Assembly: GCA_020847915.1 (NCBI GenBank)
Contig: JADLBE010000449.1
Coordinates: 1-49,658 of the forward strand
Direction of reading: 5' to 3'
From: Saprospiraceae bacterium
GTDB lineage: Bacteria; Bacteroidota; Bacteroidia; Chitinophagales; Saprospiraceae
Length of the DNA stretch: 49,658 nt
Shown: positions 4,168 through 42,161 of the stretch, piece after piece
How the letters are laid out: each line of letters starts with the position of its first letter
How positions within the stretch are numbered: position 1 is the first letter of the stretch
Program-made: the position numbers and the translations under genes
Notes under the pieces: model-generated
What the model saw: only the letters and a program-made list of their open reading frames with translations
What the model was told of the DNA's origin: nothing
The model's database searches: none

Positions 4168-4776
4168 TCACGAAGTGCCGGAAAGTGCTGTAAATCGCCT
4201 GTGCAGCGCCCAAACCTGTGGTGTGAGTGCCTTGGTGCCGTCGTTAACAATGGTAAAATCGGCCAAAACCAACTTCTCAGCTTCAGGCATTTGTCGTTTG
4301 ATTCTGGCATACACTTCGTTTTCACTCAGTCCATCGCGTTGTATAACCCGCTGAACACGTACTTCTTCAGGTGCTGTAACCACCACGAGGTAGTCTAAAA
4401 AATGGTATGCGCCGCTTTCAATCATGAGGGCCGCTTCCTTGATGGTGTAGGCATGGCCGGCGGCCTTCATGGCTTCGTGCCACGACAAACTGTCGGTTTC
4501 CACCGCCGGATGCACCAAAGCGTTCAGGGCCGCGAGTTTTTCAGGTTGTGCAAAAACGACCGAAGCAACGAACGTTCGGTTGTAGGACCCGTCCGGATGG
4601 TAGGCCTCCTCACCAAGCAATTCCGTGATGCCTGCACGCAGATTTTCATTTTCCACAATCAACGCCCTTGCCCTGTCGTCGGCGTAATACACAGGCACGC
4701 CAAGAATTTCAAACATGGCACAAACGGTTGTTTTGCCGCTGCCTATGCCTCCGGTGATGCCAACTCTTAAAGTCAT
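4168..4776 (-). CDS. coaE: Dephospho-CoA kinase
   Basis: CoaE phosphorylates dephospho-CoA, the last step of coenzyme A synthesis. With the ATG at 4776 the protein is 202 residues and starts MTLRVGITGGIGSGKTTV, with the P-loop GGIGSGKTT at residues 9-17. It continues with the family YYADDRAR and LVHPAV segments. An upstream start at 4803 would add nine residues encoded by 7-bp repeat DNA (4774-4822), so I chose 4776, as in the family. The start codon lies inside the last heptad of that repeat, and the whole gap to crtY is repeat. It is probably co-transcribed with crtY. Confidence 0.93.
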   Translation of the reverse strand: MTLRVGITGGIGSGKTTVCAMFEILGVPVYYADDRARALIVENENLRAGITELLGEEAYHPDGSYNRTFVASVVFAQPEKLAALNALVHPAVETDSLSWHEAMKAAGHAYTIKEAALMIESGAYHFLDYLVVVTAPEEVRVQRVIQRDGLSENEVYARIKRQMPEAEKLVLADFTIVNDGTKALTPQVWALHRRFTALSGTS

Positions 4777-4822
4777 AAGTCGTAAATTAGTTGCAAGTTG
4801 CAAGTGGCAAGTTGGGAGTGGG
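4774..4822. repeat. Heptad-periodic repeat filling the crtY-coaE gap
   Basis: Seven consecutive 7-bp units read CATAAGT CGTAAAT, then TAGTTGC AAGTTGC, then AAGTGGC AAGTTGG, then GAGTGGG. They span the whole 47-bp gap between the crtY stop (4824) and the coaE coding sequence. The first unit contains the complement of the coaE ATG. Seen directly; function unknown. Confidence 0.8.
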
Positions 4823-4823
4823 A

Positions 4824-6038
4824 TTAGAGTTGGGAAAGACGGGTCATTTGTTTAAAAGCTGCGAGGGTAAAAACACCTTTTGGGGCGGTGGCCATAACGC
4901 GCAGATTTTCCACCAAGGTACTGTCCTCATCGAGAAAACGGAAAACCGTGGTTGCCGGCAGGTCGCGAAACATACGTTTAAACACTTCGCCGCCCAAGTC
5001 GCCTTTTTGTTGCAAAACCTTGAGCAAAACACTGTCGAAAAAACGGAAATGCGGATCCGAAGCCAGCAAGGCCGGATTGGGCGCCCCTTGTTGGCCCCAA
5101 TCGTTTACCAGCGCCTGAAGCTTGCGTTGTGTACGTTTGAAAGCATAACCGCTCGACCCTTTTACAAAACCTCCGGCGGTGCCGATGTTGATCACACGGC
5201 CCTCTAAAATGGCAGGAAAAACTGCGTCCGTCATGGGTATGATGCCAAATTCCGTCTCTTCAATTTGGTATTGATTGATGTTCAGGTATTGAATGAGGTA
5301 GTTTTTCAGGGCATCGTCGTAGTCGGTTTCCTTCAGAAGTTCAGGGGAAAACAACGTGTATTCCACAAGTGCCCTTGTGGGAGAAAACGGCAAGACATAA
5401 ACAAACCGGGTTGCGCCGTTTTGATCCACACGAAAATCCATAAACGTGACACATTCAGGATCAAAAACAGGTTGTTCTGTTTCCACCAACCAACCTTTGA
5501 AATGCTGTAACAATTGTATGGCCCCACCCCTCCCCTGCGCTTCAGGTTTTTCTGAAAGACTAAACGGTTGTTCAAACCATGGATTTTGTGGTATCAGTTT
5601 GCGCTTCATCAACGCGCTGTTAAAAACCACTTCACCCGTGTAATCCCCTGAATCGGTTGTAACGAGACCTTGTTCAGCATCGATGTTGAGGATACTGGCT
5701 TTTAACCAAATGATGTTGGGATTGGTAGCTATTTGTTGTTTGGACCAGGCGTAAAAATCGCAACCCCGTACCATGTGGTAACGGTACGGTGCTATGTCGA
5801 GCCGCCGTTCAAAACCAGGCGCATAAAACTTGCAGGCATTCCAGGTAAATGTTGAAACAGCAGGCATGTTTTCATCATCGCGCGCCCAGAAACACCAGGT
5901 GCGATCGTTGGCGTTTTTATCGTCGCGGTCGATGATCAGCACACGTTTTTTACCAAGCTCCGGGTGCGTCGCAATCAGTCGGGCCAGCGTGAGTCCGGCC
6001 AAACCTGCACCCGCAATCACCACATCGTAGGAGTTCAA
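4824..6038 (-). CDS. crtY: Lycopene beta-cyclase
   Basis: This 404-residue flavoprotein-type cyclase converts lycopene ends to beta-rings in carotenoid synthesis, at the membrane. It has the N-terminal dinucleotide motif GAGLAGLTLARLI, an acidic strand end (LIIDRDD), the CrtY-typical NDRTWCFW at residues ~44-51, VVFNSA, and GFVKGSSGYAF near the C-terminus. The first codon is TTG (6036-6038); no ATG lies upstream in frame, and the next downstream candidates would cut the nucleotide-binding motif. The start codon abuts a long heptad array (6031-6236) that fills the divergent region. No other carotenoid gene is nearby; coaE follows after 47 bp. Confidence 0.92.
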   Translation of the reverse strand: MNSYDVVIAGAGLAGLTLARLIATHPELGKKRVLIIDRDDKNANDRTWCFWARDDENMPAVSTFTWNACKFYAPGFERRLDIAPYRYHMVRGCDFYAWSKQQIATNPNIIWLKASILNIDAEQGLVTTDSGDYTGEVVFNSALMKRKLIPQNPWFEQPFSLSEKPEAQGRGGAIQLLQHFKGWLVETEQPVFDPECVTFMDFRVDQNGATRFVYVLPFSPTRALVEYTLFSPELLKETDYDDALKNYLIQYLNINQYQIEETEFGIIPMTDAVFPAILEGRVINIGTAGGFVKGSSGYAFKRTQRKLQALVNDWGQQGAPNPALLASDPHFRFFDSVLLKVLQQKGDLGGEVFKRMFRDLPATTVFRFLDEDSTLVENLRVMATAPKGVFTLAAFKQMTRLSQL

Positions 6039-6236
6039 AAGTTTGGAGTTTAAAGTTTGAAGTTTAAAGGAGTTCGGAGTTTGGAGTTCGGAGTTTGGAG
6101 TTCGGAGTTTGGAGTTTGGAGTTTGGAGTTTGGAGTTTGGAGTTTGGAGTTTGGAGTTTGGAGTTTGGAGTTTGGAGTAACAAGCGGTTACTTGCTACTT
6201 GCTACTTGCCACTTGCAACTTGCCATATGCTTTTTG
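6031..6236. repeat. Large heptanucleotide array between crtY and the divergent operon
   Basis: Positions 6031-6065 hold five degenerate units (GAGTTCA, AAAGTTT, GGAGTTT, AAAGTTT, GAAGTTT). A 3-bp slip (AAA) follows, and 6069-6236 then holds 24 units in unbroken 7-bp phase. The first 16 are GGAGTTC/GGAGTTT, alternating at first and ending GGAGTAA. The next are CAAGCGG, TTACTTG, CTACTTG twice, CCACTTG, CAACTTG, CCATATG and CTTTTTG. The word family changes without loss of phase. The array covers most of the divergent promoter region. Confidence 0.93.
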
Positions 6237-6266
6237 TTTACATTTACACCCGCAATACCTGACGAG

Positions 6267-7850
6267 ATGAATGCCACGCCTGCCTCTTACCGAAGTCTTT
6301 CCGAAGACGCAATCAAGCGTTCTTTTTTGCCGTTTTTGAAAGATTTTTACAAAAACAGGTACGCTTTCCACCACGAAAGTTTTGAAGCGCGTACCGACAA
6401 CGTCAGTTCCGGCGGTATTGTAGCCGATGGCATGGTGCGTTTCAGGCGCGAGGACGGCAGGGAGTTTCTTTGCACTTACGAAGCTACGTCGCTGGACAAA
6501 GCGGAAGAAGTGCGTTACACCCTGAATACCAAATACCTGATGTGGGACGGCCTGGCGTTCGGCGCTTTCCTGACGGCGCTAAACTACGCGGTTTTGTACT
6601 ATTTCCGGTTCGAATGGCTGCACAACCTGCAAACAATCGGCAACATCGGTTTGGTGACAGGCATCGGCATGATAGCCTTTTTTGTCTGGCAGCTGGCGAT
6701 GCAGGGCTGGCGCAAATACCGTTACATCTACGCTGTTGAACAATTCAAACGTTATTTCGCACACGAACAGTGGATCGCACTGGGCGAAGACGTGTTTCCT
6801 GCGCCCACCGATCCATACCTCACGGAACTGAAAAACCAGTGTATGTACCACGGTTTCGGACTGGCATTGGTGTACAAAACAGGTCTTGTTCGTGTGGTGA
6901 TGGCGCCCTCCAGACTTGGCATTTTTGGAAAAGACCGCCGAATTGTGGAATGGTTTACCAAAAACCAATGGTACCAAACCGTAGCCAACAACCTCAGGGT
7001 AGTGACGCAAACACGTCCGGACATGCCTTCGGCCACCCGAAAAACCGTCAACTTCATCTTCCGACCCATCGACCAGTGGGTTCTTACACCCGCTAAAAAA
7101 TTCTTCCTGCCGCAAGCCGGCAACGTAAACCGTTACATGAGCGCACAGGGAAGTCAGAAATGGGTTTTTACCCTATCCATGATGTTGGTGTTGCCACTGA
7201 TGTACCATGTAAGCAAATACCAGGAACGAGCTTTTACCGACACCACACAGTACTTGCCCGAACGCTCTGAGGACAATCCGGAAGACGAACCCTATTACCT
7301 TGAAAAAGACGATCCCGTTCCCGATGATGCCTACGATGGCCGAGGCATTCCCAAACAATATCCGCAAGACGACCGGGTTGCTGCGGCTGCCGACGATGAG
7401 GTAACCACCATCGATTTGAGCGGCGGTGCAGAGGAGGAAAAGCCTGTTAAACCTGTCAAAAAACCGGCGCCCAAACCGGCGGAAAAAACCAAACCAGTTG
7501 TCAAACCTGCCGAACCTAAAAAGAATCCGACTGCATCCATACAGGCGGTAAAACCCGTCGACCCCTGCGCCGTGTGGGATACCCGCAAAGGCTGGATCAT
7601 TCAGGACAACAGTTTTTCTTCCCGGGAAACAGCCGATTTGCGGGTGAAAGCTTTGCAACAACGCGGCCTGAAAGCTGAGGTGGTCGCAAAAAAATGTTTT
7701 ACACCCGGAGCTTCAGGGTTCATTGTACGCCTCGACGTTATTTTTAACAAAGAAACCGAAGCACGCATCAGGGCAGCAGAAATATTGGAAGCCCTTGAAC
7801 GGTACAACCTAGACCAGGGTTCGCCCCTGGTAAAAGGCATCAATTTATGA
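6267..7850 (+). CDS. Uncharacterised membrane protein with C-terminal SPOR-like domain
   Basis: I do not recognise this 527-residue protein as a named family. Residues 1-90 form a soluble domain with GGIVADGMVRF and FLCTYEATSLDKAEE, weakly like a PD-(D/E)xK nuclease core (D..., then ExA), which is speculative. Membrane segments lie at ~92-113, 126-146 and 299-316. An acidic stretch and a Pro/Lys-rich linker (390-420) follow. A final ~90-residue domain (QDNSFSSRETADLRVKALQ, GFIVRLDVIF) looks SPOR-like, that is, possibly peptidoglycan-binding. An upstream in-frame ATG at 6057 would add 70 residues coded by the 7-bp repeat, which I reject. Its stop overlaps the next start by 4 bp. Confidence 0.8.
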   Translation: MNATPASYRSLSEDAIKRSFLPFLKDFYKNRYAFHHESFEARTDNVSSGGIVADGMVRFRREDGREFLCTYEATSLDKAEEVRYTLNTKYLMWDGLAFGAFLTALNYAVLYYFRFEWLHNLQTIGNIGLVTGIGMIAFFVWQLAMQGWRKYRYIYAVEQFKRYFAHEQWIALGEDVFPAPTDPYLTELKNQCMYHGFGLALVYKTGLVRVVMAPSRLGIFGKDRRIVEWFTKNQWYQTVANNLRVVTQTRPDMPSATRKTVNFIFRPIDQWVLTPAKKFFLPQAGNVNRYMSAQGSQKWVFTLSMMLVLPLMYHVSKYQERAFTDTTQYLPERSEDNPEDEPYYLEKDDPVPDDAYDGRGIPKQYPQDDRVAAAADDEVTTIDLSGGAEEEKPVKPVKKPAPKPAEKTKPVVKPAEPKKNPTASIQAVKPVDPCAVWDTRKGWIIQDNSFSSRETADLRVKALQQRGLKAEVVAKKCFTPGASGFIVRLDVIFNKETEARIRAAEILEALERYNLDQGSPLVKGINL

Positions 7851-8953
7851 AAGATGTGGTGGTTCGATTGGCTTGCCTGGGTTTGTCAGCACAAATCGGC
7901 ATGTCGCTACCACTGTGGCTGCCGTACGGCGACGGAGGTCCGCCCAAAACGCCGCTGTACCTGTTGCCCCATTTGCCCGACGGATGGCTGATGTTGTTGG
8001 TTTTTTCGGCATCGGTTGCCCTGTTTATTGTGCCTCACCGCCGTTGGTCAGCCTGGTTGATGATGGCTGCCATGGTCCTTCAGGCAAACGCCGACATCAA
8101 TCGCCTGCAACCCTGGTTTTACTTCTATTTCCTTGTTTTCGCTGCTTCCTTGTCGCAAAAAACACCGGAAGCAGCCTTGCGTTGGGTTGTGGCTGCGGTG
8201 TATTTCTGGAGCGGTTTTTACAAACTGACGCCCTGGTATGCCGAACAAAACTTTGTCTGGTTTTGCGAAGCTTTCCTATTTACAGCCTGGGCAGGGAAAC
8301 ATATTTTTTTAGGCTACGCCAGCGCATTTTTGGAAATGATGCTCGGCGTCGGGTTGTTGTGGCGCCCAAGCCGTCCTTACTTCCGCATTTTCACGCTTTT
8401 TTTCCACAGCTACATCATCCTGGTGCTCAGTCCTTTGGGAGCCGACTGGAACCATGTGGTTATTCCGTGGAACCTGGCTATGGCGGCCATGGTTTGGGTT
8501 TTGTTTGCACCGAGAGAGGCGCCGGATTCGTTGCGGGTAACGGGCGTAGCATGGATTCCCGTGGTTCTGGCGGCCGTTGCACCGGCCTTACAAACGGTAC
8601 ATGCCTGGCCAACGGCTTTGTCGTGGACCATGTACAGCAACACCCAAACCGAAGTTGTATTTTACAACAATGGAGGCATGAATGACAAAATGAAAGACAT
8701 TTGGGAAAAACACGCCTTTGATAACGGCACAAAGTTGTTGCTCGACGACTGGAGCATGGCGGTGCGCAACACGCCGCTGGTGAACCACACCCGAAATTAC
8801 TTCAAGCTCGGTGCGTATCTTTGCGATTGCAGGGCAACGTCGGTTGACAGTACCGGCATTTATTTTCTGAAGGTTGACCGGTGGGAAAACGGCTCGGATT
8901 CTCTGACGTTTTTTCCATGTTCCAGGCTCCATAAATCAATTTTTTTATTTTGA
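7847..8953 (+). CDS. Polytopic membrane protein (HTTM/DoxX-like, tentative)
   Basis: This 368-residue protein has about seven hydrophobic helices (for example residues ~45-65, 95-112, 140-160, 185-200 and 230-250), followed by a C-terminal extracytoplasmic-looking domain of ~110 residues. The VYFWSGFYKLTPWY segment recalls the helix of HTTM or DoxX-like proteins where an AGxxKL-type motif occurs, but the match is weak and no catalytic motif is clear. The ATG overlaps the previous TGA (ATGA, 7847-7850), and its own TGA overlaps the TTG start of the next gene. It is therefore the second of four translationally coupled genes. Function unknown. Confidence 0.75.
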   Translation: MKDVVVRLACLGLSAQIGMSLPLWLPYGDGGPPKTPLYLLPHLPDGWLMLLVFSASVALFIVPHRRWSAWLMMAAMVLQANADINRLQPWFYFYFLVFAASLSQKTPEAALRWVVAAVYFWSGFYKLTPWYAEQNFVWFCEAFLFTAWAGKHIFLGYASAFLEMMLGVGLLWRPSRPYFRIFTLFFHSYIILVLSPLGADWNHVVIPWNLAMAAMVWVLFAPREAPDSLRVTGVAWIPVVLAAVAPALQTVHAWPTALSWTMYSNTQTEVVFYNNGGMNDKMKDIWEKHAFDNGTKLLLDDWSMAVRNTPLVNHTRNYFKLGAYLCDCRATSVDSTGIYFLKVDRWENGSDSLTFFPCSRLHKSIFLF

Positions 8954-9741
8954 AAAACACCCTTCTTTGGCGGCTTACGCCTCCGCACGGCGGTTCCGAC
9001 TCCTACCTGTTTGGCACCATGCACGTACGTGATCAGCGTGCGTTCGGGTGGCTTGATCTTGCATTGATTGGTTTAAAACTAAGTGATGTTTTTGCCGCAG
9101 AATTTGATCTGGGAGAAGCCGACGAAAGGGCACTTGCACAGGTACTACAACTGCCCGAAGGAAAAACCCTCGATCAGTTGTTGTCACGACAGGCATGGAA
9201 AAAGCTGCAACGACGACTGGGCAAAACCAACCCACTCCCCATTTCCATGTTGCAGATGATGCACCCTATGGTGGTTTCCATGACGTTAAGTACACAAATG
9301 CTCGGCGAAGAGGCCAATTTTTCCCTTGATGAAACGCTTTGGCGTCGCGCCCTCGAGGAAGATAAAAAAACCACCGGTGTTGAGTCTTTTGAAGACCAAT
9401 TGAACACCCTGCGCAGCATCAGCATCGAACAACACATCAGCAACCTCAGCTATACCCTCGAACACCTGAAAAAGCAGAAAAAACGCGTCAAAAAGATGCT
9501 TAAATTCTATGCTTCAGGTGATATCAAAGCCCTTTACCGCACAGCCCGGCGCGATACCAAAGGCATGCGCAAAGTTTTGCTTTACCGCCGAAATTGCAAC
9601 ATGGCCAACCGTTTCGCCGAAATCGCCACCGAACAAAGTCTTTTTTGTGCCGTAGGTGCAGGCCACCTTGCCGGCAAAAAAGGTATGCTGCGATTGCTCA
9701 AACAACAGGGGTTTAAACTTCATCCCATCCTGCCGGCATGA
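8950..9741 (+). CDS. TraB/GumN family protein
   Basis: This 263-residue protein starts at a TTG that overlaps the upstream TGA (TTGA, 8950-8953). The next in-frame ATG lies inside the family's first motif, so TTG is the credible start. Family landmarks are YLFGTMHVRDQRAF near residue 20, AAEFDLGEAD, and the C-terminal GAGHLAGKKGMLRLL. TraB/GumN proteins resemble metal-dependent Tiki proteases (GxxH motifs); the biochemical role in bacteria is largely unknown. No signal peptide is evident, so it may be cytoplasmic, unlike many relatives. Third gene of the overlapping set. Confidence 0.85.
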   Translation: MKNTLLWRLTPPHGGSDSYLFGTMHVRDQRAFGWLDLALIGLKLSDVFAAEFDLGEADERALAQVLQLPEGKTLDQLLSRQAWKKLQRRLGKTNPLPISMLQMMHPMVVSMTLSTQMLGEEANFSLDETLWRRALEEDKKTTGVESFEDQLNTLRSISIEQHISNLSYTLEHLKKQKKRVKKMLKFYASGDIKALYRTARRDTKGMRKVLLYRRNCNMANRFAEIATEQSLFCAVGAGHLAGKKGMLRLLKQQGFKLHPILPA

Positions 9742-10358: not shown

Positions 10359-10389
10359 GTTTGTTCCTGCCGGTTAAAACCAAACAACT

Positions 10390-12111: not shown

Positions 12112-12176
12112 ATACACCACTTAGTTTTAAAACAACCAACAGAACTTCGCACACTTTTTGTGTGATTGCTAAAAAT

Positions 12177-12220
12177 CAAAGCGGCCGAATTACCCAACCG
12201 TGGGTATTTCGGCCGCTTTG
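12177..12220 (+). terminator. Strong terminator after the dynamin-like gene
   Basis: Arms CAAAGCGGCCGAA (12177-12189) and TTCGGCCGCTTTG (12208-12220) are perfect complements. Inside them TACCCA pairs with TGGGTA across one T-T mismatch, leaving a 4-nt loop (ACCG). The downstream tract is GTTTGTTTTA. It lies 65 bp after the stop codon. Confidence 0.85.
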
Positions 12221-12228
12221 GTTTGTTT

Positions 12229-12466: not shown

Positions 12467-12520
12467 GTGGGATTTGAATGACGAAATACGAAATTTGAAA
12501 TTTCGTCATTCAAATCCCAC
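12467..12520. repeat. Inverted repeat element, family member 1
   Basis: Perfect 21-bp arms (12467-12487 and 12500-12520) surround a 12-nt spacer. The outer end is GTGGGATTTGAATGACGA. Inside, units GAATGAC, GAAATAC, GAAATTT, GAAATTT (12476-12503) have a 7-bp period. The element ends 13 bp from the stop codon of the S9 peptidase gene and could fold as its terminator, although no T-run follows. It shares ends and stop-codon distance with 19741-19925. Confidence 0.9.
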
Positions 12521-18371: not shown

Positions 18372-18422
18372 GGAAAAACAAAACGTCGCAGCGGCTGGTC
18401 CGCTACGACGTTTTGTTTTTCC
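18372..18422. terminator. Bidirectional terminator between convergent genes
   Basis: GGAAAAACAAAACGTCG (18372-18388) pairs perfectly with 18406-18422. Inside, AGCGG pairs with CCGCT. The A-rich and T-rich bases lie within the stem, so either strand can give a U-rich 3' stem. It lies between the CotH pair (plus) and the MgtC gene (minus). Confidence 0.8.
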
Positions 18423-19740: not shown

Positions 19741-19925
19741 GTGGAATTGAATGACGATTTACGACGTACGATTTTTGAAATTTGATTTGGATTTAGGGAT
19801 TTACAGGATTTTGACCTGTGGTTTGAACTGGAAAACTAATTTCCCTCGGACCAAAATCCTGTAAATCCTTAAATCCAAATCAAATTTCAAAAATCGTACG
19901 TCGTAAATCGTCATTCAAATTCCAC
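19741..19925. repeat. Long inverted repeat element, family member 2
   Basis: The arms 19741-19812 and 19853-19925 (72 and 73 bp) are complementary except for one 1-bp indel and one mismatch, around a 40-nt loop. From 19749 the left arm runs in 7-bp units: GAATGAC GATTTAC, GACGTAC GATTTTT, GAAATTT GATTTGG, ATTTAGG GATTTAC, AGGATTT. The outer end, GTGGAATT(T)GAATGACGA, matches the repeat at 12467-12520. The right end is 13 bp from the mutS2 stop codon. No transposase or target duplication is evident. Confidence 0.92.
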
Positions 19926-24623: not shown

Positions 24624-25733
24624 ATGAAACTCTACCTGATAGCCGGCGAAGCCTCTGGCGACCTGCACGGATCCAACCTCATCAAAGCATTACACCATCT
24701 TCACCCAGGACTCGAATGTCGTGCCTGGGGAGGTGAGATGATGCAGGATGCGGGTTCAACACTGGTCAAACACTACCGAGACCTGGCTTTTATGGGTTTT
24801 TGGGAGGTTATTAAAAACCTGAGAACCATCCTTGGCAACCTCGATTTTTGCAAAAAAGACATCCTTGCTTTCCAACCCGATGCCATTGTGTTGATTGATT
24901 ACCCCGGGTTCAACCTGCGCATCGCACGCTGGGCTAAGGAACATGGAATTCGCGTGGTGTATTACATCTCGCCCCAGATCTGGGCATGGCACCGCTCTCG
25001 CGTACATGCCATGAAACGCGACATCGACCAAATGTTGGTCATACTGCCTTTTGAACCCGACTTTTTCAAACAATACGGCATGGAGGTTACTTATGTCGGG
25101 CACCCGCTGCTCGATGCCATTGGTCCCGGATTGTCCGATGCACACACAACAAACAACCAAATCGCACTGCTTCCCGGCAGCCGCAAACAGGAGGTCCAAC
25201 GCATCCTGCCGGTTATGCTGGAAGCAACACGGCATTTCCCAAACCACCATTTTGTCATCGCAGCAGCCAATGTACTGAACGATGCCTATTTCCAAAACTA
25301 CATCGAAAATTACCCAAACGTAAAACTGGTACGTGGCCAGACATACGATGTGTTGCGCTCATCGTGCGCAGCTTTGGTCAAATCTGGCACTTCCACCCTG
25401 GAAACAGCCCTGCTCGACGTTCCTCAGGTGGTGTGTTACGCCGGAAATCCCCTATCCTACCACATCGCCAAACGTCTGGTGAAAGTGCCCTATATTTCTC
25501 TGGTAAACCTCATCATGGACCAGCCTCTTGTAAAGGAGCTTATTCAGGACGAATTAACCCCTGAAAATGTTCAATCAGCGTTGAATGAGATTCTCCAGCC
25601 AATGCAGATTCAAACCATAAAACAGGGCTACGCCCTTTTGCGGGAAAAACTGGGCGCAGGCGGCGCTTCCGAACGCGCAGCAAGAGCAATTCTGGAAAAC
25701 ATTCCGCAATCCACATTCCGTATTCCGCATTAA
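24624..25733 (+). CDS. lpxB: Lipid-A-disaccharide synthase
   Basis: LpxB joins UDP-diacylglucosamine and lipid X to form the lipid A disaccharide at the inner membrane. The 369-residue protein has the family start MKLYLIAGEASGDLHG, then FMGFWEV, DAIVLIDYPGFNLRIA, YYISPQIWAWH, VGHPLLD, LLPGSRKQEV, and the donor-site KSGTSTLETALLDVPQVV. The final eleven codons (IPQSTFRIPH-stop) are encoded by CATTCCG-like heptads at 25700-25734, so the extreme C-terminus and stop codon come from repeat DNA. Flanked by terminators on both sides, it appears to be transcribed alone. Confidence 0.94.
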   Translation: MKLYLIAGEASGDLHGSNLIKALHHLHPGLECRAWGGEMMQDAGSTLVKHYRDLAFMGFWEVIKNLRTILGNLDFCKKDILAFQPDAIVLIDYPGFNLRIARWAKEHGIRVVYYISPQIWAWHRSRVHAMKRDIDQMLVILPFEPDFFKQYGMEVTYVGHPLLDAIGPGLSDAHTTNNQIALLPGSRKQEVQRILPVMLEATRHFPNHHFVIAAANVLNDAYFQNYIENYPNVKLVRGQTYDVLRSSCAALVKSGTSTLETALLDVPQVVCYAGNPLSYHIAKRLVKVPYISLVNLIMDQPLVKELIQDELTPENVQSALNEILQPMQIQTIKQGYALLREKLGAGGASERAARAILENIPQSTFRIPH

Positions 25734-33937: not shown

Positions 33938-34036
33938 GGAAGCATTGCAGCTTAAACAGGTTAGCGCAGGAAAGTATGTATTTGGCCAAACCAGCAAATT
34001 TTTGAAACAGTTTTCGATGGTTTTTACAACATGTAT

Positions 34037-34044: not shown

Positions 34045-34140
34045 CATTTCCAAAATCCCTCCCGAAAACTATTGTTGTTACAATCCAACGCGATGTGCTG
34101 TGTCAAGCCACGCGTTGATTTGCTATTTTAACATCCTTTT

Positions 34141-37100
34141 ATGCTTTCTTTTATACCAAACCAACCCATTTCGAGTATGACACAATGTTACCGTCTGATG
34201 CATCGACTTTTCGTAGCTTCCATCCTTTGGGTGGGTTTCACGACACTATTGTCGGGTCAGACCTTTAACGGAGAAGCCCAGTCCTATGCCTCCCTGCGTT
34301 TACAAAAAATGTTGTCCTCCTGGGAGGTTTACAACATCGATGTGGAGGGACTGGATGCGTGGCTTCAGGCAAATCCTTCAGGAACCCTAACCCAACTCAA
34401 CCTTGGCAGCCACCAATGGAACCTTGATCTTGAGTCAAGCGGCATCATTTCGCCAAACTATAGTCTTCAGGTTCATACACCGAACGGGTTGGAAATAAGG
34501 CAAAGCAACGCAGCCAACAAAGCATTCAAAGGCACGGATGTAAACGGTGGTGGCCGCGTTCGCTTAACCATCGACGACGATTTCATCTGTGGATATGTAA
34601 CAGAGGGTGGTGAAATGGTGTTCATCGAGCCACTTTGGTGGCATGACAATACCGTTTCTCGTGATTTGTTTGTTGTTTACAATGCCAGTGCCGTAAACCG
34701 TGACCTCGGAGGAGGTTGTATGGCCCTCGAAGTGGAGGAAAAAATGCAGCATTTCCAAAACGAAGATTTGCACGATGAAGCGGAAAACAATGAAAACAGA
34801 ATGCTGGCATGCTACGAAGTGACTCTGGCCATTGCTTCCGACCGCTCCATGTTCAATAAATATTTCTCCGTAGCAAGTGTGGAAGACCACAACATTGCGG
34901 TCATCAACAATGTACAGGACAACTACAATGGCTCCTTTACCCACGATATTACCATCACCATTATAACGCAGTATGTTGAAACAGGAACCGACCCCTGGAC
35001 CAACTCCACCAATGCCGGTACACTTCTGAACAGCTTCCGGACCTGGGGCAACAACGGCGGCTTCGGTATGTCTTTCGATTTGGGAGAACTTTGGACCAAC
35101 CGCAATTTTGACGGTGGCACCATCGGTATTGCCTGGCTGAGTGCTGTGTGTACCAGCATGAAATACCACTGCCTGCAGGATTTCAGCGGTAACTCAGAAT
35201 TGCTCCGTGTACTTACGGCGCATGAAATTGGCCACAACTTCAGCTCCCCACACGACGCATCAGGTTGTCCCAATGGCTTCATCATGTGTCCATCGGTGAA
35301 CACCTCCAATACCTGGAGTACCCAATCCATCAATACGATCAACAACTTCGTCAACCAACTCATCAACAACGGCTGTTTGTCCTCTTGCGGACCACCACCG
35401 GAACCACTGGTTGCCGATTTTACCTGGTCGCCCGATCCGGCTTGCCAGGGTGCCCAAGTGTCGTTCGACGACAACTCAAGTGGCATCATCAACAGCCGCA
35501 CATGGACCTTCCAAAGTGGAACGCCCCCAACTTCAACGGCAATCAACCCTACCGTGACCTGGAATACGCCAGGCACCTACAATGTTACTCTGACCATCAA
35601 CGGTGTGGGTGGATCTGATTCGGAGGTCAAACAAATAACCATAAGTCCCAACCCGGTTGCCAATTTTACCTTCAGCATTTCCGGCACTACAGTTACGTTT
35701 ACCAATACATCCCAAAACGACGATAATTCCGAGTGGGATTTCGGCGACGGCAACTACAGCTTTGAAGACAGTCCTGTACATACTTATGCCGACGGGGGCG
35801 TTTACACGGTAACTTTGATTGTAACCAACGAATGTGGAACTTCCACCAAAACCGTTACCATCAATACCGCTCCCATCGCCGGTTTTGAAGCCGGCCCAAC
35901 CACGGGTTGCGCGCCACTTACGGTGCAGTTTACCAACTTATCCTCCAACAACGCAACTTCTTATCTCTGGCAATTTCCCGGAGGTTTGCCCAACCAGTCG
36001 AACCAGGAAAATCCGACCGTAGTTTATCCCAATTCAGGCACATACAGTGTTACACTCACTGCCACAAACATGACGGGCTCCAATACGGTCATTCAAACCA
36101 ACTACATTACGGTTCAGAACATACCGTCCGCCAACTTTACCCATTCGGCAAACGGTCTCGTGGTTACTTTCACCAACACATCGGTTGGTGGAACCTCCTG
36201 GCTCTGGACTTTTGGTGATGGCAACACCAGTACGGAGCAAAATCCTGTGCATACGTACGACATCGGCGGCTCCTACACCGTAACACTTACCACGACCAAT
36301 CCTTGCGGTAATACGGTAACGACTAAAACGGTAGCGCTCATACCTCCGCCAACAGCCAGCTTTACCGCTACGCCCACAACAGGATGTGCACCGCTGACGG
36401 TTCAATTTACAAGTACCGCAACGGGCAACCCGACAACCTACAACTGGTCATTCCCTGGAGGTACCCCCTCATCCTCGACGGCTCAAAACCCGAGCGTGGT
36501 TTACAATACAGCCGGCACCTACAACGTGACATTCATTGCCACCAATGTAGGCGGCGGCGATACGTTGGTTCAAAACAACTATGTGACGGTTAACGGTACG
36601 CCTGCATCGTCGTTTACCAGCAGCATAAACGGGTCTACCGCAAGTTTTACCAACACAACCACCAACGGAACGTCCTACAGCTGGGCCTTCGGCGACGGCG
36701 GTACAAGCACACAATCCAATCCGTCACACAATTATGCCAACGACGGCACCTACACCGTTGTGCTTACCTCAACCAATGCCTGCGGTACGTCGACCGCTAC
36801 CCAAACGGTGACGATCATTACGCCGCCCTCGGCAAACTTCACCGCTACACCCACTACGGGTTGCTCAGCACTCACGGTACAGCTCAACAACATTTCCTCG
36901 CCCAACGCGACAACGTTTGCATGGTCCTTCCCGGGAGGAATTCCCTCGAGCTCCACGCTGGCCAACCCGACGGTTACGTACAATACAACTGGTCAGTACT
37001 CGATAACACTCATCGCTTCGAACAGCGCTGGTGCCGATACCACCGTGTTTAACAACTATGTCACGGTTACGACCGTTCCGACTGCTGGATTCAACGCCTC

Positions 37101-39009
37101 AACCAATGGCGCTACCGTGAATTTTACAAACACAACAACCGGTGGCACAACGTACAGCTGGAACTTCGGTGACGGCGGCACGAGCCCACAAACCAACCCC
37201 ACACATACCTACACAACGGATGGAACTTATACCGTTGTACTCACCGCAACCAATGCATGCGGCACTTCAACGGCGACCCAAACGGTCACCATCGTATTGC
37301 CTCCGACGGCAGCATTTACAGCTACCAATACCAGTGGTTGCGCCGACCTTGTAGTACAGTTCGTCAACCAATCCTCGGCCAACACCTCCACTGTTCTCTG
37401 GTCGTTCCCCGGTGGCACACCTTCTACATCGACGCAGAACAACCCGTTGGTTGTTTACGACGCACCCGGTGCTTATTCGGTAACCCTAACGGCCACCAAC
37501 TCGGCTGGCAACAGTATCGCTACGCAAACCAACATTATTCAGGTATCCACGACGCCTGATGCTGCGTTCAGCAGCAATCAGAACAACGGAACGGTAAGCT
37601 TTACCAACACCACAACAGGTGCATCAGGTTATACCTGGTTCTTCGGCGACGGCGGTACCAGTACCCTGCCCGAACCTACCTATACCTACATGGCTGATGG
37701 CGTTTATACGGTAGTACTTGTGGCAAACAATACCTGCGGCAACGACACGATGACCCAAACGATTACCGTTGTTTTGCCTCCAACAGCTGCATTCATTTCA
37801 GATGATGTGGAAGGTTGTTCGCCCTTTACGGTACAGTTCAGCAACGAATCGTCTGTAAACACCACTGCTTTCACCTGGACCTTCGAAGGCGGCGATCCTG
37901 CAACGTCTGATGTTGAAAACCCAAGTGTAACCTGGAACCAGCCCGGCGTGTACCAGGTTGTACTTACCGTCAGCAATGCAGCCGGTACTTCCACCGCTAG
38001 CAGTACCATTACCGTTAATACCGCGCCTACTGCCGGATTTACAACGGCCACCGCAGGTTTGTCGGTACAAACGACCAATACCTCAACAGGAGGCACCAGC
38101 TATCTTTGGGATTTCGGCGACGGCTCGTCGGGCAGCACCGAAGCTAATCCCGTACATGACTACGCTTCCACAGGTACTTATACCATCAAACTTTCAGTTA
38201 CCAACGATTGTGGTACAGCCGATTTCGTCCAGAACGTAGAAATCGTAGGCGCCCCTCCAATCGCACAATTCTCTGCGGAATCAACCAAAGGTTGTTCGCC
38301 GTTTACGGTTCAGTTTACGGACATGTCCATCGGCGGACCTACCAGCTGGGCCTGGAATTTTGTCGGAGGCAACCCAACTACGTCAACGGATCAGAACCCC
38401 CTGGTTACCTATGCAGCACCAGGTGTTTACACCGTTGAGCTCAAGGTTACCAACCTTTTTGGCAACAACACGACGACACTTGTTGACTACATCGTTGTGC
38501 AGGATTTGCCCCAGGCTGGTTTCAGCTACCAGGCAGTTAACGATACCGTAGACTTCAACAACCTTTCGCTGAATGCTGACAGCTACCAGTGGAATTTTGG
38601 TGATGGTGGCACAAGCAGCGAATCCAACCCAACCTATGTGTATGGCACTTCGGGCATTTACACCGTTGAACTCACGGCCATCAATACCTGTGGTGCAGCA
38701 ACCCTGCAACAAATGGTGGAAGTGATTCTCGTAGGCACGGAGGATCCTGAATGGCTCAACAGCTTCCGCTTGTATCCCAATCCGAACGACGGTTCGTTCA
38801 ACATCGACATGGTGGGTGAGCCGATTGATGAGGTCTCGTTCACACTGTACGATGCCGCCGGACGATTGATCAAACGTGATGTATCAGATTTTAACACCGG
38901 TGTATTGCGGAAAAGTTTCCTTTATCAGGGTCTTCCTTCAGGTATGTACCACATGCACATCCTGGCCGGCGCTAAATCGAAACACGTAAAAATCGTCGTG
39001 CAACGATAA
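34141..39009 (+). CDS. Secreted reprolysin-like zinc metalloprotease with 14 PKD domains and T9SS sorting domain
   Basis: This 1622-residue protein has a signal peptide (to ~Q40; ATGs at 34141, 34177 or 34198 are all possible). A ~180-residue pro-region is followed by an M12B/reprolysin-like protease domain (~222-415) with the zinc motif HEIGHNFSSPHD (His361, Glu362, His365, His371). Residues ~421-1530 are 14 PKD domains, alternating an FPGG type and an FGDG type in seven pairs, with one Cys per domain. The final ~85 residues (FRLYPNPNDGSFNIDM ... LPSGMYHMHILAG) are a type A T9SS domain. Likely a large, surface-bound protease; substrate unknown. Confidence 0.92.
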   Translation: MLSFIPNQPISSMTQCYRLMHRLFVASILWVGFTTLLSGQTFNGEAQSYASLRLQKMLSSWEVYNIDVEGLDAWLQANPSGTLTQLNLGSHQWNLDLESSGIISPNYSLQVHTPNGLEIRQSNAANKAFKGTDVNGGGRVRLTIDDDFICGYVTEGGEMVFIEPLWWHDNTVSRDLFVVYNASAVNRDLGGGCMALEVEEKMQHFQNEDLHDEAENNENRMLACYEVTLAIASDRSMFNKYFSVASVEDHNIAVINNVQDNYNGSFTHDITITIITQYVETGTDPWTNSTNAGTLLNSFRTWGNNGGFGMSFDLGELWTNRNFDGGTIGIAWLSAVCTSMKYHCLQDFSGNSELLRVLTAHEIGHNFSSPHDASGCPNGFIMCPSVNTSNTWSTQSINTINNFVNQLINNGCLSSCGPPPEPLVADFTWSPDPACQGAQVSFDDNSSGIINSRTWTFQSGTPPTSTAINPTVTWNTPGTYNVTLTINGVGGSDSEVKQITISPNPVANFTFSISGTTVTFTNTSQNDDNSEWDFGDGNYSFEDSPVHTYADGGVYTVTLIVTNECGTSTKTVTINTAPIAGFEAGPTTGCAPLTVQFTNLSSNNATSYLWQFPGGLPNQSNQENPTVVYPNSGTYSVTLTATNMTGSNTVIQTNYITVQNIPSANFTHSANGLVVTFTNTSVGGTSWLWTFGDGNTSTEQNPVHTYDIGGSYTVTLTTTNPCGNTVTTKTVALIPPPTASFTATPTTGCAPLTVQFTSTATGNPTTYNWSFPGGTPSSSTAQNPSVVYNTAGTYNVTFIATNVGGGDTLVQNNYVTVNGTPASSFTSSINGSTASFTNTTTNGTSYSWAFGDGGTSTQSNPSHNYANDGTYTVVLTSTNACGTSTATQTVTIITPPSANFTATPTTGCSALTVQLNNISSPNATTFAWSFPGGIPSSSTLANPTVTYNTTGQYSITLIASNSAGADTTVFNNYVTVTTVPTAGFNASTNGATVNFTNTTTGGTTYSWNFGDGGTSPQTNPTHTYTTDGTYTVVLTATNACGTSTATQTVTIVLPPTAAFTATNTSGCADLVVQFVNQSSANTSTVLWSFPGGTPSTSTQNNPLVVYDAPGAYSVTLTATNSAGNSIATQTNIIQVSTTPDAAFSSNQNNGTVSFTNTTTGASGYTWFFGDGGTSTLPEPTYTYMADGVYTVVLVANNTCGNDTMTQTITVVLPPTAAFISDDVEGCSPFTVQFSNESSVNTTAFTWTFEGGDPATSDVENPSVTWNQPGVYQVVLTVSNAAGTSTASSTITVNTAPTAGFTTATAGLSVQTTNTSTGGTSYLWDFGDGSSGSTEANPVHDYASTGTYTIKLSVTNDCGTADFVQNVEIVGAPPIAQFSAESTKGCSPFTVQFTDMSIGGPTSWAWNFVGGNPTTSTDQNPLVTYAAPGVYTVELKVTNLFGNNTTTLVDYIVVQDLPQAGFSYQAVNDTVDFNNLSLNADSYQWNFGDGGTSSESNPTYVYGTSGIYTVELTAINTCGAATLQQMVEVILVGTEDPEWLNSFRLYPNPNDGSFNIDMVGEPIDEVSFTLYDAAGRLIKRDVSDFNTGVLRKSFLYQGLPSGMYHMHILAGAKSKHVKIVVQR

Positions 39010-39023
39010 AAGTCGTAAGTCGT
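39010..39023. repeat. Two inverted-orientation heptads before the terminator
   Basis: AAGTCGT twice, directly after the protease stop codon. It is the exact complement of part of the ACTTACG array at 39092-39193, so the two can pair around the terminator. Confidence 0.7.
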
Positions 39024-39044
39024 ACTTAATCTTGCGATTAGAAT

Positions 39045-39090
39045 AAAAAAAAGCCCAATTGTTTGGAAAACAAACGATTGGGCTTTTTTT
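39045..39090 (+). terminator. Terminator after the PKD protease gene
   Basis: GCCCAAT with inner GTTTG (39053-39065) pairs with CAAAC and ATTGGGC across a GAAAA loop. The stem is preceded by A8 and followed by T8. Strong in both directions. Confidence 0.9.
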
Positions 39091-39091
39091 T

Positions 39092-39193
39092 ACTTACGAC
39101 TTACGACTTACGACTTACGACTTACGACTTACGACTTACGACTTACGACTTACGACTTACGACTTACGACTTACGACTTACGACTTACGACTT
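39092..39193. repeat. Perfect (ACTTACG) heptad array
   Basis: Fourteen identical 7-bp copies plus ACTT, with no variation, immediately after the terminator T-run and ~60 bp before the DUF1573 gene. Perfect identity suggests recent expansion or active homogenisation. Confidence 0.95.
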
Positions 39194-39255
39194 TTTTTTG
39201 GCCCCATATTTGAATGTAGGTATGTTGTAATCCGTACTGTGTTAAAACAACAACA

Positions 39256-39690
39256 ATGAAAAACACCAAACCACAACTTTTCGCCTTTGTATTTTTCCTT
39301 TTTCTCGCCTGCAGTGCCGGAGCCCAAAACCTGCCGACAGGTGATAACTCCCTGAATGCCGGCAAAGTAAGCTGGACTGACAGGCAACTTAAAACAGGCG
39401 CGGTACCCTTTGGCGAACCTGTTGTTCGTGAGTTTTGGTTGAAAAACACCAGCAGTGAAAATCTAATTTTACTGCGGGTGAACAACTCCTGTTCCTGCCT
39501 GAAACTGGAATGGCCTGAAAGTCCCATTGCCCCCGGCCAATCGGCCCGCATCAAAGCAACCTATGACTCTCAGAAAGAGGGTGATTTTTACCGCTTGTTT
39601 ACGGTTCAAACCAATTTTGACCCCAACCAGTCCGTTCCATTTGCCCTAAGTGGCAAGGTTGAAAAACGTATGGAAGCTTCGCGCAATTGA
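39256..39690 (+). CDS. DUF1573 domain secreted protein
   Basis: This 144-residue protein has a signal peptide (MKNTKPQLFAFVFFLFLACSAGAQ). The mature part is one DUF1573/ASPM-SPD-2-Hydin-like Ig domain: FGEPVVREFWLKNTSSENL, the conserved VNNSCSCLKLEWP cysteine pair, and IAPGQSARIKATYDS. Such proteins are common and abundant in Bacteroidota, with no assigned function. It is separated from the EEP gene by 73 bp on the same strand. Promoter elements are unclear, since the upstream region is mostly the ACTTACG array. Confidence 0.88.
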   Translation: MKNTKPQLFAFVFFLFLACSAGAQNLPTGDNSLNAGKVSWTDRQLKTGAVPFGEPVVREFWLKNTSSENLILLRVNNSCSCLKLEWPESPIAPGQSARIKATYDSQKEGDFYRLFTVQTNFDPNQSVPFALSGKVEKRMEASRN

Positions 39691-39763
39691 TGCATTAATA
39701 CGAAGCATTTTTTGGACTTTTGTCGCATCATCTTGCGCAAAAAATTCCATTCAAATCGCTTTC

Positions 39764-40855
39764 ATGTTTCGTACTTATTTCCTCAGACCATTCCTCCGCA
39801 TTGTTTTGCCGGTTTTTATGTTGTATGTTTTGGTCCTTCTGGTCCATGGGTGGCTGGTCGACTGGCAACCCGAGGATGAAACCGTAATAACACCGACACA
39901 GTTGGCCAAACAAACCCTTGTGGAGGATAGTTTGCTGACGTTTATAAGCTGGAATGTAGGCTACGGCGGCCTGGGTGCAGAATCTGATTTTTTTTACGAC
40001 GATGAAGGCATGTGGCATTCGGGCAGCAGTATGGTGCGCACGCCCCGTCCATTGGTGGAAAAAAACATCAGCGGCGCCCTCGAGTTTTTAAAAAACACAC
40101 AAGCAGATTTTTTCCTTTTGCAGGAAGTGGACATGGCCTCCGACCGTAGCCACCAAATTCGTCAGTACGATGCTTACAGTGCTGCATTGCCCGAATTCGC
40201 CGCTACGTTTGCCGCCAATTACAAATGTCCGCGCGTACCCATCCCCTTGCTTGAACCCTGGAATGCTTATGGCGCCGTTGAATCGGGTCTGGGAACTTTT
40301 GGCAGGTACCAGCCGGCCGAAGCTGTGCGGTACCAGTTGCCGGGAAAATACCCCATGCCAAACCGTTTGTTCCAACTCGATCGTTGCGTTGCGGTACATC
40401 GGTACCCGACAAAATGGGGAAACGAACTGGTGGTCATGAACATTCACAACAGTGCTTACGATCCGGGCGACAAAATCAAAGCGATTCAGATGCCTTACCT
40501 GCGCGAACTAGCTTTGAAAGAATTTGATAAAGGCAATTATGTGGTTTTGGGTGGCGACTGGAACCAGTGTCCGCCGTATTTTCGCTACGACACGTTTATC
40601 GCTTCCGACGGGCATACCCAGGGAAACATCCCCGACGATTTTTTTCCGGATGGATGGAAATTTGCCTACGACCCTACCCTTCCAACCAACCGAAAGGCGG
40701 ATGATCCGTATGAAAAGGGCAAAACCTTTGAAACCCTGATTGATTTTTTCCTGGTTTCGCCCAACGTCCGGGTCGTCAAAGTGAATGGATTTTCACAGAA
40801 ATTTCAATATTCTGACCATCAGCCGGTGGCTTTAACCATTGGTATTGGTAATTAA
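39764..40855 (+). CDS. Membrane-anchored endonuclease/exonuclease/phosphatase family protein
   Basis: With the ATG at 39764 the protein is 363 residues and begins with a single membrane helix (LRIVLPVFMLYVLVLLVHGW), placing the catalytic domain outside the cytoplasm. EEP-superfamily motifs are in order: ISWNVGYGG, LLQEVD (metal-binding Glu), VVMNIHNSA, VLGGDWNQCPP (Asp and Asn), and YSDHQPVALTI (Asp-His). Substrates of the family are phosphodiesters or phosphomonoesters of nucleic acids, lipids or inositol phosphates; which applies here is unknown. An in-frame ATG at 39650 overlaps the DUF1573 gene and adds non-family residues. Confidence 0.85.
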   Translation: MFRTYFLRPFLRIVLPVFMLYVLVLLVHGWLVDWQPEDETVITPTQLAKQTLVEDSLLTFISWNVGYGGLGAESDFFYDDEGMWHSGSSMVRTPRPLVEKNISGALEFLKNTQADFFLLQEVDMASDRSHQIRQYDAYSAALPEFAATFAANYKCPRVPIPLLEPWNAYGAVESGLGTFGRYQPAEAVRYQLPGKYPMPNRLFQLDRCVAVHRYPTKWGNELVVMNIHNSAYDPGDKIKAIQMPYLRELALKEFDKGNYVVLGGDWNQCPPYFRYDTFIASDGHTQGNIPDDFFPDGWKFAYDPTLPTNRKADDPYEKGKTFETLIDFFLVSPNVRVVKVNGFSQKFQYSDHQPVALTIGIGN

Positions 40856-40873
40856 TACAGGCTTCATCCGCTA

Positions 40874-40908
40874 TTTGTTTTTCCTTTAAGGCGAAACAAG
40901 TACTTTTG
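40874..40908 (+). promoter_or_regulatory. Putative gap promoter
   Basis: TACTTTTG (40901-40908) matches the -7 box; a TTTG at 40874-40877 is 23 nt upstream, slightly beyond the usual spacing. The leader to the gap ATG is ~75 nt. Confidence 0.55.
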
Positions 40909-40991
40909 CGGCGCCCCAGGCTATGAAAGTAGCCGTGCTGCCTGCCGGATTCAAGCCGGTCCCCTTTCACGTCAATCAATAGAAACAAAGT

Positions 40992-41984
40992 ATGGCAAAA
41001 AAACGCATTGCTATCAACGGCTTCGGTCGTATTGGTCGCCTCACGTTCCGCAATCTGATGAAAAATTCAGATGTTGAAGTCGTTGCCATCAACGACCTCA
41101 CCGACAACACCACCCTCGCCCACCTGCTCAAATACGACACCATGCACGGCCGTTTTGAAGGCACCATTTCGGCCGACGAAACGCACATCACCGTCAATGG
41201 CCAGAAAATTGCTGCTCTTGCCGTGCGCAACCCCGCTGAACTGCCCTGGGCAGAAATGAAGGTTGATGTGGTGCTCGAATGTACTGGTATCTTCCTCGAC
41301 CGCGAGAAAGCCGGTTTGCATCTTCAGGCAGGCGCCAAACGTGTGGTGCTTTCCGCTCCGCCCAAAGCCGACGACGTTCCCACTTTTGTGATCGGCGCCA
41401 ACGAAGATCAGATCAAGGACACGGACACCATCCTGTCCAACGCCTCCTGCACAACCAACTGCCTCGTGCCCATGATCATGACGCTCGACAAAGCTTTTGG
41501 CGTTGAGCAGTTTTTCATGAACACCATTCACGCGTACACTTCCGACCAGAACCTGCAGGACGGTCCGCACAAGGACCTGCGCCGCGCACGTGCCGCTGCG
41601 ATGAACATCGTGCCTACAAGCACCGGCGCCGCCAAAGCAGTTGTTTTGGTAGCTCCGCACCTGAAAGGCAAAATCGCTGCACACTCCATGCGTGTTCCCG
41701 TGGCTACAGGCTCGGTGACCGACGTGGTGGCTACACTGAAAACACCTCAAACGGTGGAATCCATCAACGCAGCCTTCAAAGCTGTCGCCGATGGCCACCT
41801 GAAAGGCATCCTTGAATACAATACCGACGAAATCGTAAGTGGCGACATCGTTCGCAACACACACTCCTGCATCTTTGACGCTCCACTGACCCAGGTTAAC
41901 GGCAATACCTGCCGCGTTGTGGGTTGGTACGACAACGAAGCCGGCTACTCGGCCCGTTTGGCCCAGCTGACGGCAATGGTTTAG
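40992..41984 (+). CDS. gap: Glyceraldehyde-3-phosphate dehydrogenase
   Basis: GAPDH oxidises glyceraldehyde-3-phosphate with NAD and phosphate in glycolysis. The 330-residue protein has the Rossmann motif INGFGRIGR (residues 8-16), the catalytic SNASCTTNCL with Cys153, HAYTSDQNLQDG, PTSTGAAKAV, and the C-terminal WYDNEAGYSARLA. It is followed by a 60-nt perfect hairpin and then pgk, a classical glycolytic pair. Length is normal. Confidence 0.97.
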   Translation: MAKKRIAINGFGRIGRLTFRNLMKNSDVEVVAINDLTDNTTLAHLLKYDTMHGRFEGTISADETHITVNGQKIAALAVRNPAELPWAEMKVDVVLECTGIFLDREKAGLHLQAGAKRVVLSAPPKADDVPTFVIGANEDQIKDTDTILSNASCTTNCLVPMIMTLDKAFGVEQFFMNTIHAYTSDQNLQDGPHKDLRRARAAAMNIVPTSTGAAKAVVLVAPHLKGKIAAHSMRVPVATGSVTDVVATLKTPQTVESINAAFKAVADGHLKGILEYNTDEIVSGDIVRNTHSCIFDAPLTQVNGNTCRVVGWYDNEAGYSARLAQLTAMV

Positions 41985-41996
41985 GTAGTCTTTAGT

Positions 41997-42056
41997 CGCC
42001 CCGACAATACCATGTTTTTTCGGCTTAGGCCGAAAAAACATGGTATTGTCGGGGCG
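41997..42056. terminator. Perfect 28-bp-arm hairpin between gap and pgk
   Basis: CGCCCCGACAATACCATG and the following ten bases (41997-42024) pair without error with 42029-42056 around a TTAG loop. The stem includes a run of six T or A. It lies 12 bp past the gap stop. It is far longer than needed for an intrinsic terminator; the 3' side continues CCTTTAAAAA. Confidence 0.75.
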
Positions 42057-42126
42057 CCTTTAAAAAGGTTGTCCACCCACGTTGCCAGGATGACCAATTC
42101 TGTTCCCAAGCTTTGTTGGGATGCCT

Positions 42127-42161
42127 AATTCCGCATTCCGCATTCACCATTCCGCATTCGA
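42127..42161. repeat. CATTCCG heptad repeat before pgk
   Basis: Five units (AATTCCG, CATTCCG, CATTCAC, CATTCCG, CATTCGA) end 3 bp before the pgk ATG. Same word family as the repeat at the end of lpxB. Confidence 0.75.

Follow-up and report, generated by a model that had tools for sequence, protein, structure and literature searches.

Heptamer arrays of a Saprospiraceae genome are mostly arms of intergenic hairpins that share a G-rich-first polarity

Introduction

Among long simple sequence repeats, with units of 5-11 bp, heptamers are reportedly the commonest, and Mrazek is said to have proposed polymerase slippage as their origin in 2007; the STRR heptamers of cyanobacteria likewise comprise several heptamer words per genome. 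Here we analyse the heptamer arrays of a 49,658-nt stretch of DNA, contig C449 (JADLBE010000449.1) of the draft genome of a Saprospiraceae bacterium (GCA_020847915.1; 5.22 Mb in 534 contigs), which we call the window. Among named genomes, its PGK is closest to metagenome bins of Saprospiraceae/Saprospirales, which match at 72-74% identity. A first-pass annotation of the window had described strictly 7-bp-periodic DNA with interchangeable words at no fewer than seven gene boundaries and had supposed a common generating mechanism. All seven places exist; what that annotation overlooked is the main fact, that the majority of such arrays are hairpin arms.

The portion of PMC4692102 used here dates the recognition of excess heptamers in bacteria to 2007, and the literature examined offers no tested cause for it. 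The same portion describes GGGAATC units in Xanthomonas and GGGGA(C/T)T units in Nostoc as mostly intergenic, near ends of open reading frames (ORFs) and seldom between divergent genes, reports inverted pairs of Xanthomonas heptamers in convergent orientation (70 in Xcc and 75 in Xac), and cites a heptamer case in Calothrix. TAACTGA repeats occur in Beggiatoaceae, Cyanobacteria and some Bacteroidetes, according to the available part of MacGregor (2015; PMC4679880), with other heptamers also in Microcystis and with indels of mostly 7 nt between two Cyanothece strains. Since that source places TAACTGA arrays in five Bacteroidetes, several of which have other heptamers too, the first-pass claim that no equivalent was known in the phylum is not supported.

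Results

Rather than free-standing microsatellites, most heptamer tracts of this genome are the arms of hairpins in intergenic DNA, which in many cases enclose a terminator-like core. Arrays were called where at least 18 matches fell over 21 positions in a genome sample of 54 clean contigs (495,186 bases), with genes called by a longest-ORF heuristic; five contigs made up wholly of N, and L103, which folds back on itself, are left out of the clean counts and still included in the palindrome-per-Mb, cross-locus-control, contig-end, 8-bp-pairing and stop-codon counts. At a looser threshold, the clean sample and the window hold 71 arrays, 55 of which lie at least 350 bp from contig ends; for 34 of the 55, an inverted partner is present no more than 350 bp away. 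The corresponding share was 2.0% for 1500 segments drawn at random, 15.5% for 600 drawn at random from non-coding DNA and 3.5% for cross-locus controls. Palindromes are plentiful in this genome as a whole: 85 with arms of at least 20 bp were counted in the clean sample plus the window, and a 7- or 8-bp array coincides with 27 of these or lies no more than 40 bp away. The palindrome rate is about five times that of 80 loci from relatives (154 vs 30 per Mb, with one fold-back contig and N bases included). In one nested palindrome of about 280 bp (L144:416-696), the outer arms consist of heptamers and the long inner arms are non-repetitive.

These hairpins follow a polarity that is a new regularity of the present analysis. 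Of 60 distinct hairpins with tandem arms, taken from three samples, 58 have the G-rich arm on the 5' side, two are tied and none is reversed; G exceeds C in the 5' arm at 20/20 hairpins of the window's own genome, 27/27 of its congeners and 11/13 of wider loci, where both ties fall (sign test, p = 7e-18, with repeated sequences removed, relatedness ignored and sister species counted apart). Counted by array, with both arms and overlapping loci included, 108 of 110 are positive, none negative and two tied. Palindromes of the genome that lack tandem arms show the same lean far less strictly (35 G-first vs 14 C-first), and the corresponding counts in the wider set are 8 vs 12. Transcription-directed polarity, through R-loops, was considered and fits poorly, since arrays at divergent sites share the same polarity (these are few, 8 arrays). 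No title or opening of an abstract among those surveyed in the open-access literature mentions heptamer hairpin arms or such a polarity in Bacteroidota.

Arrays without a partner also differ in composition with position. The nearest feature of 63 unpaired arrays from the genome and its congeners is a 3' end in 34 cases and a 5' end in 16, with 5 inside an ORF and 8 unassigned. Read on the sense strand, those at 3' ends are G>C in 26 cases vs C>G in 7, and those at 5' ends in 4 vs 11 (Fisher p = 0.001, ties omitted). The array at the lpxB end (CATTCCG on the sense strand) contradicts this rule for gene ends.

The words replace one another in place, often in phase. We searched the genome for the core found at 39044-39092 of the window (CCCAATNNTTTG, five bases, CAAANNATTGGG; at most two mismatches), which occurs at 27 places, or 25 once the mirror copy on C203 and that on C529 are discounted; the control, the same pattern reversed, has no match. 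Inspection of 15 exact matches, 13 of them distinct, found heptamer arms at all 13, with AAGTCGT at 9, AGCAGGC at 2 and AAACTTT and AAGTCCG at one each, so that four words on one core confirm that words are truly interchangeable, as the first-pass annotation had held. One of the AAGTCGT elements has AAGTCCG-type units in its opposite arm, and three of the 12 other core places (C380, C426 and C476) were seen to carry AAGTCGT arms. By eye, the array abuts an A-tract in one register at four loci (L313, L315, L316 and L318: AGTCCAA, AGCAGGC or AGTCGTA, then AGTAAAA), and the junction at L323 differs from these. In keeping with intrinsic terminators, 12 of the 13 distinct cores have a T-run of at least five on at least one strand. 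Unit number varies by arm and by locus, from 2 vs 14.6 in the window to two or three up to more than 10 elsewhere. Altogether, the clean sample and window yield 24 consensus words over 51 places, and only one word (AGCGGGC) holds a GGG or CCC run.

Differences between sister species bear on how the arrays change. Genomes G024 and G042 are 95% identical across 4.2 kb around pgk, and their hairpins upstream of this gene have left arms 14 bp apart in length and right arms 8 bp apart, with some units differing as well. The loop aligns only when reverse-complemented (score 69 vs 12 direct; shuffle maximum 22). In G008 and G023 (93% identity), a downstream array is nearly uniform GAGTGAG in one genome and an alternating pair of units in the other, the G008 copy being cut by a contig end. 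G006 and G048 (pgk 87% identical) each carry a hairpin at the site upstream of pgk, and the words of the two differ. The upstream pgk site of G007 and G021 (89%) has no array, and no further arrays were found in the compared part of other aligned stretches of close pairs.

A period of 7 prevails in this genome. Of four self-match thresholds applied to the window, the three stricter admit just lag 7 and, as its multiple, lag 14, and the loosest adds one match each at lags 9 and 15. By lag, the genome sample yields 39 arrays for 7, nine for 8 and six for 14, the last partly as a harmonic of 7; no other lag between 4 and 15 exceeds 4 arrays, and ten Markov shuffles gave no array at any lag. Tandem 7-bp units are therefore far above chance, as in long simple sequence repeats, and the lag-7 excess anticipated by the first-pass annotation is borne out. 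Of the 39 lag-7 arrays, 30 are at least half non-coding, against a non-coding share of 11% for the whole sample under the ORF heuristic, and arrays avoid divergent gene pairs (2 of 32 classified array sites vs 47 of 193 background gaps, Fisher p = 0.02; 20 of 52 sites were unclassifiable). An 8-bp family, GGTCGGTT, is also present, with 4 of 12 arrays paired.

The same architecture recurs in independently assembled relatives, with other periods. Seven congeners, covered by 20 stretches (400 kb), have arrays at lags 7, 8, 10 and 13, and lag 8 exceeds lag 7 (17 vs 10 at the 18-of-21 threshold), which counts against the earlier claim that the period is always 7; this claim holds for the window, whereas 8-bp arrays occur elsewhere in its genome and 8- and 10-bp arrays in congeners. 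Together with partly overlapping pgk loci, the congeners have inverted partners for 20/30 arrays at lag 7, 24/32 at lag 8, 3/7 at lag 9, 4/10 at lag 10, 1/1 at lag 11 and 0/4 at lag 13, and for 0/2 and 0/5 at lags 6 and 12. Lag 7 is the commonest in the 80 wider loci, with 34 arrays of which 11 are paired, and lag 8 comes next with 15. Words turn over: only 2 of the 24 words of this genome (AAGTCGT and AATGCGG) are among 18 congener words, and (TTACGAC)x3, with 96 matches in this genome (overlaps and mirror copies counted), has one match, in a single genome, among 39 relatives. An array lies within 320 bp upstream of pgk at 8 of 30 loci, our own included, with differing words, and a C-rich array ends within 4 bp of the pgk ATG at 6 of the 30.

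We also considered loss of SbcD, a hairpin nuclease, as a reason for palindrome tolerance. An SbcD-family match is present in 38 of 42 congeneric genomes and over the cut-off in 5, and our genome passes the cut-off only when neighbouring matches are summed; yet G008, with a full-length match, carries an array. SbcD is nearly full-length in four of the 42, and most others, including our own, have a weak partial match.

In the window itself (Table 1), period 7 is reported by Tandem Repeats Finder (TRF) for five places, the exceptions among the seven being 12476 and 19749. Because the arms at 12467-12520 and 19747-19918 match themselves at lag 7 by just 36% and 48%, 'strictly' periodic overstated the case. 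These two sites and 39010-39193 (fold z -5.8) are hairpins, and the remaining four are not clearly so (fold z -2.7, -1.4, -2.0 and -0.3). No inverted partner of the array at 4785-4822 was found within 350 bp. The arrays at 6038-6178 and 6189-6223 form a G-first, C-second pair of unlike words, and the two words that meet at 6180/6181, where the first-pass annotation took phase to be kept, have no columns in common. That arrays keep out of genes fits the largely non-coding position of those in the genome sample and fails at two window sites: the first of this pair, earlier reported as starting at 6031, extends into the start codon of minus-strand crtY (TTG, 6038), and the array at 25700 encodes approximately the last 11 residues of LpxB (NIPQSTFRIPH) and its stop. 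The congener LpxB tails examined end otherwise. Hairpins without tandem arms at 12173-12224, 18372-18422 and 41997-42056 are usable as controls within the window.

Table 1. Heptamer arrays and hairpins of the window, and places of the 8-bp family elsewhere in the genome
Feature	Position	Strand	Remarks
Heptamer array, word AAGTTGC (+ strand)	4785..4822		Adjoins crtY stop; TRF 4789-4814, period 7
Heptamer array, ~19 units AGTTTGG/AGTTCGG	6038..6178	+	G-rich on + strand; TRF call begins 6040
Heptamer array, 5 units TACTTGC	6189..6223	+	C-rich on + strand; TRF, composition by reading
Perfect hairpin, 21-bp arms, 12-nt loop	12467..12520		GAATGAC GAAATAC GAAATTT units; convergent ORFs either side; fold z -5.7
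Long hairpin, 67-bp arms at 99%	19747..19918		Heptad-like GANNTNN arms; includes 19749-19811; fold z -12.6
CATTCCG array	25700..25731	+	TRF period 7; within LpxB ORF 24624-25733; beside ordinary terminator-like hairpin
Left G-rich arm, 2 units AAGTCGT	39010..39024	+	Immediately after stop of ORF 34141-39009; TRF period 7
Bidirectional terminator-like core AAAAAAAAGCCCAATTGTTTG..CAAACGATTGGGCTTTTTTTT	39044..39092		Core type at 27 genome places
Right C-rich arm, 14.6 perfect units ACTTACG	39092..39193	+	TRF period 7
CATTCCG-type array in pgk leader	42121..42160	+	Stops 4 bp before ATG; TRF 42128-42159, period 7
8-bp family GGTCGGTT / GGTTAGTC	L131:800-1033, L142:14-126, L122:3136-3223		Inverted arms in L131

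Discussion

We consider it reasonably probable that the heptamer tracts are, for the most part, hairpin arms that have expanded in tandem, through slippage and template switching, in the G-first orientation. The substrate would be intergenic hairpins, including dispersed palindromic elements, many with a core resembling a bidirectional intrinsic terminator and mainly at gene 3' ends. Replication slippage would alter arm length, mostly in 7-bp steps here and in steps of 8 and 10 bp too in the clade; point mutation would supply new words, and further slippage would make the array uniform again. Template switching between the arms would maintain their complementarity and sometimes flip the loop, as has been described for inverted repeats, whose arms it homogenizes and whose spacers it inverts (PMC8604942, in the part available). 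Expansion would occur, or be tolerated, only where the 5' arm is G-rich; we infer that the G-rich nascent strand of the first-copied arm slips and then templates the second. Copying between loci would account for the same word at many loci. Slippage with template switching explains the length steps, the homogeneous arrays with variant units, the complementary arms and the inverted loop. A common generator, as proposed in the first-pass annotation, is partly supported, by the shared core with its several words, by the differing words of arrays upstream of pgk and by one polarity rule for paired arrays of all words.

Several observations weigh against this interpretation. Slippage and template switching alone leave the spread of words and the G-rich-first order unexplained, and the recurrence of AGCAGGC at 9 of the 51 places shows that slippage is insufficient and that copying between loci is needed. 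No inverted partner was found for 21 of the 55 arrays, and several elements have unlike left and right inner arms, so homogenization of the arms is not universal. Between G024 and G042, the 8-bp difference in the right arm is no whole number of 7-bp units, and a second array, with 8-bp units, is unchanged. The inverted loop of this pair matches in 62 of 79 columns vs 95% in the flanks and, being more diverged than they are, is equally likely to reflect a flip or replacement by another copy of this dispersed element, whose hairpin region has many further matches in G024. Array sites differ at just two among the pairs with more than 90% identity (G024/G042 and G008/G023).

An alternative that we regard as unlikely is that the hairpins are mobile palindromic elements, akin to miniature inverted-repeat transposable elements or repetitive extragenic palindromic (REP) elements and spread by a transposase, with the heptamers as terminal element sequence and the periodicity secondary. 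The core is dispersed with unlike flanks, the genome has two Y1 transposase genes, and of 143 matches of a 20-kb query in the congener G024, a single hairpin region takes up more than 100 (counted on both strands, and thus fewer places). REP elements are, in the part of PMC3733652 used here, 20-40 bp long, with a GTAG or CGTC tag and REP-associated tyrosine transposases (RAYTs). The hairpins resemble them as dispersed extragenic palindromes and differ in being longer, in their tandem arms and in not being the palindromes of the Y1 loci; these loci (Y1_Tnp) hold, by eye, other palindromes and no lag-7 array, on which ground an origin of the RAYT/REP kind was rejected. The two Y1 (IS200-like) genes lie at L226 and L227, with palindromes unlike the heptamer hairpins and of the CCGCTTTAGCGG type at L226, and an 8-bp array is located about 3 kb from one of them. 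Mobility is further opposed by the four words borne by one core, by arms that often start at or near stop codons (by eye, uncounted) and by the lack of target duplications, again by eye, in the elements inspected. Direct selection of the arrays as regulatory sites, for protein binding, translation or termination, with the C-rich, G-poor arm as an open leader or Rho site and the G-rich arm as a trailer, seems to us still less probable; such a role has been suggested for TAACTGA repeats ahead of start codons. It would accommodate the opposite compositions of unpaired arrays near 3' and 5' ends and the C-rich arrays close to the pgk ATG. Nevertheless, so few words are shared with congeners that turnover argues against it, as do the eight divergent-site arrays that keep the polarity, the C-rich arm that would be base-paired in a paired hairpin and the 22 of 30 pgk loci that lack an array within 320 bp upstream at the detection threshold applied. 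A regulatory role is therefore possible for leader arrays, and word turnover and absence from most orthologous leaders oppose a general one.

Two further explanations appear to us highly improbable. Units not divisible by 3 that contain a stop codon would stop all frames after a gene, and the leading periods (7, 8 and 10 in congeners, 7 and 8 in our genome) suit such a trap, as does a stop in 34 of 61 inward vs 19 of 61 outward words; letter-shuffled words, however, give 30.6 plus or minus 3.0 inward, which is no clear excess over composition, and the trap was rejected on this control. An artefact of a single draft metagenome assembly could be suspected because contigs C203, C322 (L103) and C529 fold back on themselves and because the outermost 150 bp of contigs, which make up 3.5% of the sample, hold 8 of 65 arrays. 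C322 and its reverse complement are identical, the compared stretches of C203 and C529 are mirror copies, and all three turn round at a centre with GGCTAGCC; this folding does look like an assembly artefact that doubles local counts. The hairpins themselves, by contrast, have unlike flanks and asymmetric loops, and contigs of 0.85 and 1.2 Mb from congeners that were assembled independently show the same architecture.

The arrays described here are a broader variant of known repeats, closest among published ones to the G-rich heptamers of Xanthomonas and Nostoc and to the TAACTGA repeats, to which they add new regularities. With the former they share 7-bp units, intergenic position, heterogeneity (GGGANTN in their case) and scarcity between divergent genes, and the arrangement in convergent inverted pairs with the G-rich strand inward is found here at 58 of 60 hairpins, with two ties. 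Those systems have one word family per lineage and have been the subject of G-quadruplex studies, whereas here 24 words occupy 51 places and congeners use other periods. Since 23 of the 24 consensus words lack G-runs of three, unlike the G-quadruplex units GGGANTN and GGGGA(C/T)T, the phenomenon seems separate from G-quadruplexes. If the 'convergent' pairs of Xanthomonas are read, from their description, as having the G-rich arm first, the G-first rule may extend beyond the phylum. TAACTGA repeats are likewise intergenic direct heptamers with sites just before start codons, a position that the array in the pgk leader shares. They favour one word, near start codons and in forward orientation, with one indirect repeat in the main genome; our arrays, unlike them, are hairpin arms, mainly at 3' ends, with many words, and TAACTGA is absent among the 24 consensus words of the sample. 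The 7-bp excess is common to long simple sequence repeats, for which the parts of the citing papers PMC4679880 and PMC4692102 used here make no mention of hairpin pairing or polarity.

Taken together, the arrays probably have no general function beyond likely termination by their cores, the period being a mutational footprint. A more specific proposal, which we advance only tentatively, is that polarity drives growth: the G-rich nascent strand of the first arm would amplify arms in units set by the polymerase (7-8 and sometimes 10 bp), and fold-back would copy the second arm, a process free of transposase and independent of sequence that would have built tandem-armed hairpins again and again throughout Bacteroidota and, from a single word family, in Xanthomonas. 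Since word identity is disposable, our data weigh against sequence-specific regulatory readings of single heptamer families. The G-first order, which holds whatever the word, turns a vague idea of slippage into a directional and testable one.

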